A DNA stretch of 64,000 bases, taken from Tenggerimyces flavus (GTDB lineage: Bacteria > Actinomycetota > Actinomycetes > Propionibacteriales > Actinopolymorphaceae). Both the position numbers and the translations under genes were made by a program. Every line of letters begins with the position of its first letter. The stretch's first letter is position 1. Below, piece after piece: positions 24,892 to 29,455 of the stretch. The stretch lies in contig NZ_JAFBCM010000001.1 in NCBI RefSeq assembly GCF_016907715.1, forward strand, positions 372,001-436,000, in the 5' to 3' direction. The notes beneath the pieces are model-generated. The model ran no database searches. It had not been told where the DNA came from and saw only the letters and a list, made by a program, of their open reading frames with translations.

Positions 24892-26027
24892 GGATTCGCG
24901 AGATCCGCTGCGCCGGCCTGCGCGGCGCGACACCGGCCGGCGGCTGGGCCACCGAGCTCACGCCCGAGGACAACGTCCACACGCTCGTCGTCGTGCACAC
25001 CACCGAGGACCTGTACGGCGTCGGAAGTGTGTTCACCAGCGAGGCGCTGGTCCGAGCGTCGCTGGATGTCCTTGCCCCGTTGGCGATCGGCGAGTCCGCG
25101 CTCGAGCCGGAGCGCGTGTCCGAGAAGCTGCATCAGCACACGTTCTGGCAGGGACGCGGCGGCGCGATCACGCACACGATCAGCGGCATCGACATCGCCC
25201 TGTGGGACCTCCTCGGCCAAGCCACGCGGCAACCCGTCGGCCGGCTGCTGGGTGGCAGGCATCGCGAGCGGGTCCGCCCGTACGCGTCGCTGCTCATGAC
25301 CGATCCTCCGGCCGAGATGGTCGATCAGCTGATATCCCTACGGGAGCAGGGCTTTCGCGCGTTCAAGATTGGCTGGGGGCCGTTCGGCCGCCGCGACGCC
25401 AGGACCGACGAGTCCGTCGTACGGGCCGCCAGAGAAGCGATCGGCGACGACGCTCTGCTCGCGGTCGACGCCGGCGGCAGCGACGCGTTCTGGCGAGGCG
25501 ATCTCGCCTGGGCCAGACGGACAGCCACCATGCTCGCCGGCTACGACGTCGCCTGGTTCGAGGAAGCACTCGAACCGGACGCCGCCGAGGACTTCGCGTC
25601 ACTGCGGGCGACCTCGCCCGTGCCGATCTCCGGCGGCGAGGTGCTGACGAGAAGGCAGTCGTTCCTGCCCTTCCTGCAAGCGGGTTCGTTCGACATCGTG
25701 CAGCCGGACGTGACAAAGGTCGGCGGCCTCAGCGAGTCGCGCCGGATCGGCTGGGCCGCGCAGGACCACGGCGTGCGGCTGATCCCGCACGGCTGGAACA
25801 CCGCGGTCGGGCTCGCCGCCGACCTACACCTCGCGGCCGCGCTCCCCGAGACGGACCTGGTCGAGTACATCGGCGGTTCCGCGTACGTCGACGACCTGGT
25901 CAGCGACCCGTGGCAGCTCGACAGCGAAGGCATGCTGGCGATTCCGGCCGAACCGGGGCTCGGGCTGCGCCTCGACCCCGACGCCGTCGCCCGCTACACC
26001 GGCAACGCGGACCTCGGATTGCCCTAG
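24888..26027 (+). CDS. Enolase-superfamily (mandelate racemase/muconate lactonizing) enzyme
   Basis: The 379-residue protein has the capping domain and barrel with metal ligands in LLAVDAGGSD (Asp), VAWFEEALEP (Glu) and PISGGEVLTR (Glu). A conserved RLIPHGWNTAVGL segment supplies a His that can serve as catalytic base or acid. The second-strand Lys is in FKIGWGP. It is coupled to the creatininase-family gene by a GTGA overlap, probably forming a two-step pathway on a small acid or lactone. Its TAG shares CTAG with the convergent DUF4032 gene. Confidence 0.85.
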   Translation: MRIREIRCAGLRGATPAGGWATELTPEDNVHTLVVVHTTEDLYGVGSVFTSEALVRASLDVLAPLAIGESALEPERVSEKLHQHTFWQGRGGAITHTISGIDIALWDLLGQATRQPVGRLLGGRHRERVRPYASLLMTDPPAEMVDQLISLREQGFRAFKIGWGPFGRRDARTDESVVRAAREAIGDDALLAVDAGGSDAFWRGDLAWARRTATMLAGYDVAWFEEALEPDAAEDFASLRATSPVPISGGEVLTRRQSFLPFLQAGSFDIVQPDVTKVGGLSESRRIGWAAQDHGVRLIPHGWNTAVGLAADLHLAAALPETDLVEYIGGSAYVDDLVSDPWQLDSEGMLAIPAEPGLGLRLDPDAVARYTGNADLGLP

Positions 26028-27262
26028 GGGTCGATCTCCGCGAGCGACGGCAGGTCGTCCTCGGACGGCAGCCGCGTCTTCTCGTCCGGGCGGTTGCGCA
26101 GCACGGTCTGGATGTACGACTGGGTCGCGCGCGTCAGCGGGATCTCGGTGCCGGCGGCCTCGGAGAGGTACCAGCGGTGCTCGAGCACCTCGTGGAACAG
26201 CTCGGCCGGCTCCAGCTTGCCGCGCAGCTCATGCGGAACGGCCTGGACGACCTTCTCGAAGACGCCGGTCAACCACTCGTGCGCGACGATCTCCTCGTCC
26301 TCGCCCTGCTGATCGGTCCCGGCGCGGTAGGCGTCGAGGTCGTTGAGGAGCCGGCGAGCCTGGTTCTCCTCAACCTCCAAGCCAGTAAGGCGAAGCAGCC
26401 GTCGCGCGTGGTGTCCGGCGTCGACCACCTTGGGCTGGATGCGGATGTGCCGGCCGTCGAAGTCGGTGCTGATGTCGAGCTCGGCGACGTCGAAGCCGAG
26501 GTCGTTCAGCCGCCGGATCCGCGAGTCCAGGCGATGCAGCTCGCCGGTGTCGAACTCCTCCGCCTCGGTGAGCTCGGCCCAGAGCCGTTCGTACCGTTCG
26601 ACGACGGAGTCGGCTGGGGCGAGCAGGTCGACATCCTCCGGAACCAGCCCACCTGCTTGAAGATCGAGCAGCTCACCGAAGATGTTGGTGTGCGCGGTGT
26701 CGAGATCGTGGCTGCGCTGGCCGGGCGAGAGATCGTTGTGCAGCTCGCCGGTCTCGGCGTCGACGAGGTACGCGGCGAACGCGCCCGCATCGCGGCGGAA
26801 GAGCGTGTTGGACAGCGAGCAGTCGCCCCAGAAGAAGCCGGCGAGGTGGAGCCGGACGAGCAGGGCGGCGAGCGCGTCGATGAGCCGTTCGACGGTGTCG
26901 GCGCGGAGGCGTTGGGAGAAGACGGCGCGGTACGGCAGCGAGAAGGATAGGTGACGCGTCAACAACATCGGCTGCAGATCCTCGCCGTCCGGCGTCGTCC
27001 GGTCGAGGACGACGCCGACCGCCTCGACCGAGGGCACGTCGAGCCGGTTGAGGTCCCGCAGCAGGCGGTGCTCGCGGAGGACGTACCGCTCCTCCGCCTC
27101 CTTGAGCGCGTAGACGTGGCCGCCGAGCCGGATGAACCGGACGACGTGTCGCGAGATGCCCCGGGGCAGCGAGACCAGATGCTCGTCCGGCCAGTCCATG
27201 AGCGGCGTGCTCCACGGCAGGCGGATGATGCCGGGATCGGCGGGTACGGAAACGAAGCGCAC
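26024..27262 (-). CDS. DUF4032 protein with kinase-like N-terminal fold
   Basis: The 412-residue protein is conserved in actinobacteria. The N-terminal half looks like a lipopolysaccharide-kinase/protein-kinase fold: HVYALKEAEERY supplies the ATP-binding Lys, FFWGDCSLSNTLF the catalytic loop with Asp and Asn, and AYLVDAETGEL the metal-binding Asp. The C-terminal half, with NRPDEKTRLPSEDD near the end, is the DUF4032 part. Phosphorylation of an unknown target is plausible. The only suitable start is GTG 27262 (family N-termini read MRF), and no clear ribosome site precedes it. Confidence 0.8.
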   Translation of the reverse strand: MRFVSVPADPGIIRLPWSTPLMDWPDEHLVSLPRGISRHVVRFIRLGGHVYALKEAEERYVLREHRLLRDLNRLDVPSVEAVGVVLDRTTPDGEDLQPMLLTRHLSFSLPYRAVFSQRLRADTVERLIDALAALLVRLHLAGFFWGDCSLSNTLFRRDAGAFAAYLVDAETGELHNDLSPGQRSHDLDTAHTNIFGELLDLQAGGLVPEDVDLLAPADSVVERYERLWAELTEAEEFDTGELHRLDSRIRRLNDLGFDVAELDISTDFDGRHIRIQPKVVDAGHHARRLLRLTGLEVEENQARRLLNDLDAYRAGTDQQGEDEEIVAHEWLTGVFEKVVQAVPHELRGKLEPAELFHEVLEHRWYLSEAAGTEIPLTRATQSYIQTVLRNRPDEKTRLPSEDDLPSLAEIDP

Positions 27263-27365: not shown

Positions 27366-28196
27366 ATGACGAAACGACTGCTTGGCGCCATCGCCGTCCT
27401 GGCCGGTGGCGGGACGGCCATCGCGCTGCTGGCCCAGGGACCGGCCAGGGAGGGCCTGAGCGTGGACCTGTATCGGGCGCTCCTCCTCGGAACGGCCTGG
27501 GACCACGCCGCGGACGCCCTGCTGGTCTTCCTCGGCCTGCTGCTGACCTGGACCGGGTGGTCCGTCCGGCGGAACGTGCCCGCGATCGTTCGCGTCGCGT
27601 GGGTCGGCGCGGGAACCGCGGTCGCGTACGGCCTCAGCGAGGGGCTCAAGCTCGTCGTCGACGAGGAACGGCCGTGTCGCGCCGTCCTCGAGCTCGCCGG
27701 CTGCCCACCCGTGGGCGACTGGTCGTTTCCGAGCAACCACGCCACGCTGGCAGCGGGGATCGCCGTCGGGTTGGCCATGCTCCGGCCTCGGCTCGCCGCC
27801 GTCGCGCTACCGCTGGGCCTGCTGGTGGCGCTCGCCCGCGTCGTCGCCGGCGTCCACTATCCGCACGACGTGGTCGCGGGCGCGGCCCTCGGCGCCGCCG
27901 TGGTCGCCGCGGGCTTGCTGCTCCTCGGGAAGCAGCCCGGCCTCGTACGCGACGACGGCCGCGGCGGCCCGGTTGCCGACGCCGAGCCGGGTCAGGACGG
28001 CGCTGACGTGCGCTTTCACCGTTCCCTCGACCACCCCGAGGCGGCGGGCGATTTGCCCGTTGGTCGAGCCGGCGGCGAGGAACGCGAGCACCCCGCGCTC
28101 CCGCGGCGTGAGCGCGGCGACGCGCCGGCGGGCGGTCGCGCCGCCCGCTCCCCCGGCGGTGAGGTGGTGGACGACGCGGGCGGCGACCGTCGGTGA
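27366..28196 (+). CDS. PAP2-superfamily phosphatase, with run-on C-terminus
   Basis: This membrane phosphatase shows the three acid-phosphatase motifs: KLVVDEERP (K-x6-RP), FPSNHATLAAG (PSxH) and RVVAGVHYPHD (R-x5-H-x3-D), within about five to six helices. It probably dephosphorylates a lipid or undecaprenyl-type pyrophosphate. The normal protein would end about residue 189 (LLLLGK). Here the frame runs on for another 87 mostly charged residues, antisense to the response-regulator gene, until TGA at 28194. The run-on tail is unlikely to be functional sequence. Confidence 0.8.
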   Translation: MTKRLLGAIAVLAGGGTAIALLAQGPAREGLSVDLYRALLLGTAWDHAADALLVFLGLLLTWTGWSVRRNVPAIVRVAWVGAGTAVAYGLSEGLKLVVDEERPCRAVLELAGCPPVGDWSFPSNHATLAAGIAVGLAMLRPRLAAVALPLGLLVALARVVAGVHYPHDVVAGAALGAAVVAAGLLLLGKQPGLVRDDGRGGPVADAEPGQDGADVRFHRSLDHPEAAGDLPVGRAGGEEREHPALPRRERGDAPAGGRAARSPGGEVVDDAGGDRR

Positions 28197-28571
28197 GAGG
28201 TACGCGGCGCCGCCAGCCACCGCGCGGACACCGGCGATGAGCTCCTCCGGCTCGCCCGACTTGACCAGGAAGCCCGCGGCGCCGTCGCCCAACGCGCGCA
28301 GGATGTTGTCGTCCTCGCCGAACGTCGTCAGCATCACCACGCCCGTCGCCGGGACGGTCCGGCGGATCTCGGCGGCGGCGCGGAGGCCGTCGACGCGGGG
28401 CATGCGGATGTCGAGGACGGCGACGTCGGGGCGGTGCCGGTGGGCGAGGTCGACCGCCTGCCGGCCGTCGGCGGCCTCGGCGACCACCTCGAGGTCGGGC
28501 GCCGTCGCGAGAACGGAGTGCACGCCGCGGCGGACCATCGGCTCGTCGTCGGCGACAAGGACGCGGATCAC
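27807..28571 (-). CDS. NarL/LuxR-type response regulator, with run-on C-terminus
   Basis: The receiver domain reads VLVADDEPMVRRGV, VAVLDIRMPRVDGL (phospho-acceptor Asp) and VVMLTTFGE, ending with the Lys of FLVKSGEPEE. The C-terminal HTH is LTPRERGVLAFLAAGSTNGQ...VKAHVSAVLTRLG. The usual length is about 214 residues; here 40 further residues are read antisense to the PAP2 gene before TGA at 27807. GTG 28571 overlaps the kinase stop (GTGA), so kinase and regulator form one operon. Confidence 0.88.
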   Translation of the reverse strand: MIRVLVADDEPMVRRGVHSVLATAPDLEVVAEAADGRQAVDLAHRHRPDVAVLDIRMPRVDGLRAAAEIRRTVPATGVVMLTTFGEDDNILRALGDGAAGFLVKSGEPEELIAGVRAVAGGAAYLSPTVAARVVHHLTAGGAGGATARRRVAALTPRERGVLAFLAAGSTNGQIARRLGVVEGTVKAHVSAVLTRLGVGNRAAAAVVAYEAGLLPEEQQARGDHGGAEGRARDHVVRIVDAGDDAGERHQQAQR

Positions 28572-29455
28572 GCGGCGCTCACCTGCTTGGAGACGAGTCG
28601 GCCTGCCGCGAAGCAGAGCTGGTAGGTGTCGCCGTAGCGGTCAGCGAACGGGTTGGCCGTGATCGCGTGACGCACGCAGCCGTCTGGGTGAGCGCTGGCC
28701 TGGCCGACTGTGAGGGCCTCGTACGCGGCGGCATCGAGCACGGTCGCGCTGAGCTGGTGGGCTTCCCAGGCTCGGGTGCCGACACCGATCAGCGCGGTGA
28801 CGGCGAGGGGTACGGCGACGGCGGCGCACGCGAGCCGCCCGAGTCGCGGCCCGTTCGGCTCCGGCGGCGGGGTGGCGGGAACGCGCGCGGTGAGGTGGAA
28901 GCCGCCGCCGCCGGCTCCGTACGCGAGCTCGCCGCCCGCGGCTTCGACGCGTTCGGTCAACCCTGGAAGGCCGTTCGTCACCCTGACTTCGCTCCGGCGG
29001 ACTCGTACGATGACCGGCGCGCCCGGCGCGTGCTTGACCGCGTTCGTCAGCGCCTCCTGCACGACCCGGCGCGCGACCGGGCCGTCCGCCCCGGGCTCGG
29101 CGTCGAGGCTGACGTCGAGCCCGGCCCTTCGCGCGCCGTCGACGAGGGCAGCCGTGTCGTCCGTACGCAGAACGCCGACCACCTCGCCGAGCCGTTCGAC
29201 CGCGGCGGCGGCTCGGGCGCGGACCTCGTGCGCGGCCGACCGGTGCTCGTCGGGCACGGTGAGCTTCAACGTGCCAGCGGACAACGCGATCAGGTTGAGG
29301 TCGTGGCCGAGCTGGTCGTGCAGGTCCTGCGCGATGCGGGCCCGTTCCCGCCCCACGATCTCCCGCTGTCGTTGCCGAAACCGGCGGGCGAACCACCAGA
29401 ACGCCGCCAGGCCCACCGCCAGTGCGATCGCATCCCCGTAGAACACTGTCCGCAC
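28568..29455 (-). CDS. Two-component sensor histidine kinase (HisKA_3 type) with C-terminal extracytoplasmic part
   Basis: The 295-residue kinase starts with a single hydrophobic segment (ALAVGLAAFWWFARR), then the HisKA_3 phosphorylation helix RIAQDLHDQLGHDLNLIALS and an ATPase domain with VVQEALTNAVKHAPG. After the ATPase a second hydrophobic segment (CAAVAVPLAVTALIGVG) is followed by about 75 residues with two cysteines (DGCVRHAI, YQLCFAAG). This suggests a sensor part outside the cell at the C-terminus, an unusual order for this family. The start is GTG 29455 or GTG 29446. The cognate regulator follows by GTGA overlap. Confidence 0.85.
   Translation of the reverse strand: MRTVFYGDAIALAVGLAAFWWFARRFRQRQREIVGRERARIAQDLHDQLGHDLNLIALSAGTLKLTVPDEHRSAAHEVRARAAAAVERLGEVVGVLRTDDTAALVDGARRAGLDVSLDAEPGADGPVARRVVQEALTNAVKHAPGAPVIVRVRRSEVRVTNGLPGLTERVEAAGGELAYGAGGGGFHLTARVPATPPPEPNGPRLGRLACAAVAVPLAVTALIGVGTRAWEAHQLSATVLDAAAYEALTVGQASAHPDGCVRHAITANPFADRYGDTYQLCFAAGRLVSKQVSAA

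Follow-up and report, generated by a model that had tools for sequence, protein, structure and literature searches.

A convergent coding overlap between a PAP2-family phosphatase gene and a response regulator gene, with a conserved stop codon inside the regulator frame

Described antisense overlaps and the layout of the locus

Bacterial genes whose coding frames overlap at length on opposite strands are usually put down to misannotation, and selection on the second frame is seldom convincingly supported. The dmdR1/adm pair of Streptomyces coelicolor (Tunca et al. 2009) resembles the one described here, since it too is a Streptomyces case of antiparallel coding frames, one of them belonging to a regulator gene. 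In that pair, adm is reportedly a separate open reading frame antisense to dmdR1; in ours, it is the 3' end of a conserved membrane enzyme gene that runs tail-to-tail into the gene of a response regulator. A survey of long overlaps (PMC2478687) judged most of them to be misannotations, with 54 of 178 convergent overlaps longer than 60 bp possibly real, and found the convergent ones mostly conserved in very close species only. The PAP2/regulator pair is likewise a tail-to-tail 3' coding overlap reached by 3' extension of a gene, but it covers about 300 bp, is found in several genera and has its stop held by one rare codon, so that the depth of its conservation is notable against the surveyed cases. 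The laoB and ano genes of E. coli O157:H7 (PMC5810103, PMC5960689) also code antisense to a known gene, but these are small new genes that lie largely within it and were detected by RNA-seq and Ribo-seq, whereas the PAP2 tail is a C-terminal extension of an established enzyme and is supported here by comparison of loci. Excludons and noncontiguous operons (PMC7154746) would share with our locus the converging or opposed overlapping transcripts and the potential for mutual repression; however, they are defined by transcripts that are mostly untranslated in the overlap, whereas the PAP2 and regulator genes overlap as coding frames with apparent selection on a stop codon.

The window, a stretch of 64,000 nucleotides of Tenggerimyces flavus DNA, carries on its forward strand a gene for a PAP2-family membrane phosphatase (27366-28196; Pfam PF01569, E 3.9e-20), which likely starts at ATG 27366, although ATG 27132 lies in the same open frame, and ends at TGA 28194-28196. 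Facing it on the reverse strand is a gene for a response regulator (28571-27807) with a GTG start and a TAG stop at 27807-27809. The regulator consists of a receiver domain and a LuxR-type helix-turn-helix, and its matches to PF00072 (E 1.7e-27) and PF00196 (E 8.8e-17) are both above the cutoffs, which places it in the NarL/FixJ group. Both frames thus lie in recognisable conserved genes. The two coding sequences overlap by 390 bp (27807-28196), and a terminator scan at the junction found no terminator-like site between the genes. On the far side of the regulator from PAP2, and on the same strand as the regulator, lies a partner histidine kinase of the HisKA_3 type (28568-29413, start approximate; PF07730, E 3.3e-11), which overlaps the regulator start by 4 bp. 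The open reading frames, the overlap and both stops are as an earlier note on this DNA had placed them, and so are the residues that it had counted beyond the conserved cores: 87 in PAP2 after position 27932 and 40 in the regulator after its core ends at 27930.

The PAP2 and regulator frames are exactly antisense, the first base of one codon lying opposite the third base of the other, and therefore any stop codon of one gene is read by the other as CTA, TTA or TCA. Accordingly, the TAG of the regulator is read as CTA (Leu148) by PAP2, and the TGA of PAP2 is read as TCA (Ser126) by the regulator. In this high-GC genome the three codons together make up 3 of 1707 codons in the neighbouring genes; because they are so rare, a tail of 87 antisense codons is expected to stay open in this register (P ~0.86). 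We therefore rejected the long open tails as evidence on their own. Judged by sequence comparison, it is the conservation of the arrangement and of the PAP2 stop codon that goes beyond chance, and not the openness of the tail.

The catalytic core of PAP2 (27366-27932, forward strand; residues 1-189) is a six-helix membrane domain, with helices predicted by AlphaFold up to residue 187. It has the three signature motifs of the PAP2 phosphatase superfamily: KX6RP, PSNH (PSxH in the general form) and RX5HX3D are invariant across 30 homologues, and the catalytic residues K95, R102, P103, P122, S123, H125, R158, H164 and D168 are all invariant in the homologue alignment, which argues that PAP2 is not a decaying gene. 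The protein resembles lipid and undecaprenyl pyrophosphate phosphatases, and it reached the cutoff of no specific model; with the nearest equivalog, the undecaprenyl-diphosphatase SepP model (NF047884), it scored 44.7 bits against a curated cutoff of 250. In the AlphaFold model the blocks around the motifs are mostly above 90 pLDDT, and behind the mostly confident helical core the confidence falls to a pLDDT of about 45 from residue 190 on. These 87 residues (27933-28193, forward strand), antisense to the DNA-binding half of the regulator, would thus form a disordered tail, probably cytosolic. A fold search of the PDB with PAP2 returned weak PAP2-type matches only, probably because the disordered tail lowers the scores.

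Relatives sharing the overlap and the regulator extension in the window

Relatives were collected from a scan of one genome per species and from searches of whole genomes. Pairs with the same tail-to-tail layout, and usually with the same kinase on the far side of the regulator, were found in Streptomyces and Kitasatospora, in further genera of the Streptomycetaceae and in Nocardia sienata; two Streptomyces plasmids carry one as well. Together these gave 76 distinct overlap loci, mostly from Streptomycetaceae, with Nocardia sienata and the window genome in addition. A first sample comprised 40 distinct loci, in all of which PAP2 reads into the regulator in one and the same register; the shared stretch measures 297-324 bp, or 390 bp in the window. 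This register was also seen in 36 further loci, two of them plasmid-borne, of a later sample that was gathered after the pattern had been noticed. The regulator stop in the relatives lies just past the regulator core, and the invading gene is PAP2. On the tree the overlap regulators form one clade of 44 (support 100/99) in which only four members lack the overlap. The coding overlap is therefore conserved across species, with few losses from a single clade; the loci are mutually related, and their counts are not numbers of independent events.

The regulator of the window continues for 40 residues past its core, compared with 5-29 in the first-sample relatives. This C-terminal extension (27810-27929, reverse strand) is antisense to the last helices of PAP2 and is specific to the lineage. 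The nearest regulator relative on the tree is locus L071 (support 94/83), and in comparison with it the window lacks 54 bp at 27923/27924, in a DNA alignment from which the row L128x was disregarded. The missing piece contains the regulator stop of L071, and this is why the window regulator runs 40 residues past its core; the alignment thus supports a deletion that removed the regulator stop in the window lineage. Six genomes of the same family have a PAP2 match, and none of the loci read in them showed a PAP2-regulator neighbourhood. No PAP2 core was seen beside the closest regulators from the same order, most of which come from one genus. Given the result with the six genomes, the locus was likely passed horizontally to the window genome from a member of the Streptomycetaceae.

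The regulator serine codon opposite the PAP2 stop

The TGA of PAP2 (28194-28196) lies opposite regulator Ser126, in the motif YLSP, and the serine codon was TCA in all 40 first-sample overlap loci. All 36 overlaps of the later sample also had TCA, giving 76 of 76 (in L268 the codon was read by hand and the motif is WLSP). By comparison, 93 related regulators without the overlap used TCG (47), TCC (38), TCA (6) and TCT (2) at this position, and elsewhere in the 40 overlap genes TCA accounted for 2 of 283 serine codons (<1%). Among 99 four-fold sites compared over the 76 loci, Ser126 was the sole invariant one: it never changed on the tree, whereas the other sites averaged 11.7 changes and none of them had fewer than 3. 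When the set was thinned to 13 loci less than 80% identical, two of 94 sites were invariant, Ser126 among them, and of these two Ser126 alone was fixed on A.

The codon was then compared with the state of the PAP2 frame in eight loci of the clade where the PAP2 gene is missing, cut short by an early stop or out of phase. In seven of them Ser126 is no longer TCA: the codon is TCG in L174 and TCC in L084, L086 and L267, where PAP2 is out of phase, GCA in L260, where the tail is lost, CCG in L265, where PAP2 is absent, and TCG in L266. In the last of these an earlier PAP2 stop lies inside the overlap, 24 codons before the usual one, so that the PAP2 stop has apparently moved within the overlap. 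The sole exception is L072, which lost the tail through an early PAP2 stop and retains TCA. These rows are in part one event, since L084 is the sister of L086 and L260 looks much like L267, and L246 was left out of the count, its contig ending there. When supported branches were compared in a paired test, only about two pairs were informative, with two for the association and none against.

The phase of the PAP2 frame is also maintained. The linker, defined as the stretch from the PAP2 motif HYPHD to the end of the regulator core, varies widely in length among the overlap loci, from 69 bp in the window upwards, and at least 27 length changes are required on the tree, all of them in frame; all 74 measured lengths are multiples of three. 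Some of these indels are repeat expansions in multiple-of-three units, so that the nominal P of 1e-13 is too small, but the direction is clear. Similarly, CTA, TTA and TCA were found at none of 1027 Leu/Ser positions inside the overlap. The part of these genes before the overlap had such codons at 6 of 1017 positions (p 0.015), and regulators without the overlap had them at 10 of 1319 (p 0.003). The fixed stop and the in-frame linker changes together point to selection on the phase and the stop of the second frame.

No such signal came from the residues of the tail. A functional tail sequence was sought through synonymous constraint and none was found: the ratio of observed to expected codon identity was 1.13 inside the overlap and 1.10 outside it, the same stretch in regulators without the overlap gave 1.13, and the numbers of tree steps were 11.4 and 12.1 (p 0.21). 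Selection on tail residues, which is usual but not required for a coding overlap, was thus not detected by these measures, and the lack of extra third-position constraint indicates that the tail residues are mostly dictated by the code of the regulator. As shown by comparison of the loci, what is selected is the PAP2 frame, open and in phase, together with its fixed stop, and not the tail sequence, whose amino acids drift as the regulator allows. A rare codon that alone of 99 comparable sites never varies, the decay of this codon on loss of the frame and the in-frame linkers together constitute unusually direct comparative evidence that the second frame matters.

Origin and possible role of the overlap

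From these comparisons we consider it very probable that the locus is an old, selectively kept convergent coding overlap, a judgement that covers its age and upkeep and leaves aside the reason for which it is kept. PAP2 is very probably translated to the TGA inside the regulator gene and would carry the predicted disordered tail. In the ancestor of the Streptomycetaceae regulator clade, PAP2 would have lost its own stop and run in frame into the antisense of the DNA-binding half of the regulator, the read-through coming to a halt at a TGA whose complement is the Ser126 codon of the regulator. The window genome probably gained the locus horizontally, and its lineage would then have lost 54 bp and with them the regulator stop, which would have produced the 390-bp overlap. 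The two mRNAs would be complementary over at least 300 bases and, more speculatively, RNA duplexes or polymerase collision may couple PAP2, a phosphatase of the lipid-pyrophosphate type, to the neighbouring two-component system, with the stop perhaps limiting how far PAP2 translation extends into the regulator. Antisense coupling of this kind would fit the geometry of the locus and, by analogy, the known systems of overlapping transcripts.

The earlier note had instead proposed a newly arisen overlap, in which a deletion removed both stops and the terminator region between the genes, with mutual silencing of the two as a possible result; in that case, as in that of an assembly error, the tails would be meaningless run-on. 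The 54-bp gap relative to L071 does remove the regulator stop, and the 40-residue extension is found only in the window, so that for the regulator the proposed deletion is supported, provided that the assembly is correct there. For PAP2 the proposal is refuted by the kind of finding that the note itself had named as contrary to it, since 75 other loci, in several genera and on two plasmids, share the same long tail and a homologous stop, and the loss of the gene's own stop must therefore be ancient; as an account of the whole locus, a recent accident is very improbable. About as improbable is the notion that the regulator carries TCA at this serine as a frozen rare codon, or as a DNA or RNA signal of its own unrelated to PAP2, with the open frame a passive result of high G+C. 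High-GC genes are indeed nearly free of antisense stops in this register, which makes openness uninformative, and TCA survives in L072 despite the lost tail. However, the third positions neighbouring Ser126 vary freely, which speaks against a wider signal, the linker indels remain in frame, and TCA decays once the PAP2 frame is lost, as in L266, which has gained both an earlier antisense stop and TCG at Ser126.

If the overlap is indeed old and kept, the question becomes what the stop is kept for. It may be kept purely against harmful run-on, the tail being tolerated ballast; if the TGA were lost, PAP2 would gain about 170 junk residues in the median case, the run-on past it is at least 130 codons in 38 of the 40 first-sample loci, the tail residues are unconstrained and several lineages tolerate loss of the tail. 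This explanation, which we regard as a serious candidate with a less than even chance of being right, leaves the open, in-phase frame unexplained (27 in-frame linker changes and no internal stops), since earlier stops would serve equally, and TCA is fixed also in L071 and L135, where the run-on would be just 20 and 31 residues. It is also possible, if somewhat doubtful, that the locus is an excludon-type device in which the converging transcripts silence each other and the PAP2 stop sets the end of translation, and hence Rho-type termination, inside the regulator. The complementary 3' ends of 300-390 bp and the lack of a terminator-like site between the genes would suit such a device, and overlapping transcripts are known to control one another in a comparable way by means of RNase III and polymerase collision (PMC7154746), but silencing of this kind is possible without a coding overlap. 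A more specific version, in which PAP2 translation to the fixed stop is itself a control element and the position of the stopped ribosome decides how far the antisense transcript or duplex reaches into the two-component operon, seems to us unlikely; if true, one rare serine codon of the regulator would set the expression balance of both genes. The locus offers a simple test bed for such questions, as a one-base silent change in the regulator abolishes the PAP2 stop.

Genes of this kind can be missed by annotation, and two Streptomyces plasmid records have no PAP2 gene at the match. For these plasmids (L228, NZ_CP108443.1, and L229, NZ_CP107864.1), the PLSDB table, which omits pseudogenes and is incomplete, lists the regulator and the kinase, with no CDS and a gap in the locus tags at the PAP2 match; the source records may lack an annotation for PAP2 or treat it as a pseudogene. 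Immediately upstream of PAP2 in the window is a divergent DUF4032 gene (26024-27262, reverse strand) with a Kdo/WaaP-kinase-like N-terminal part. The kinase at 28568-29413 is retained next to the regulator in most relatives. Its ATPase part is followed by a membrane segment at the C-terminal end and by a small domain (YEALTVGQ...YQLCFAAGRLVSK), for which Pfam gave no match. The C-terminus is an unusual location for a sensor domain, and by eye the small domain looks homologous to the C-terminus of an Amycolatopsis arida kinase (L076).
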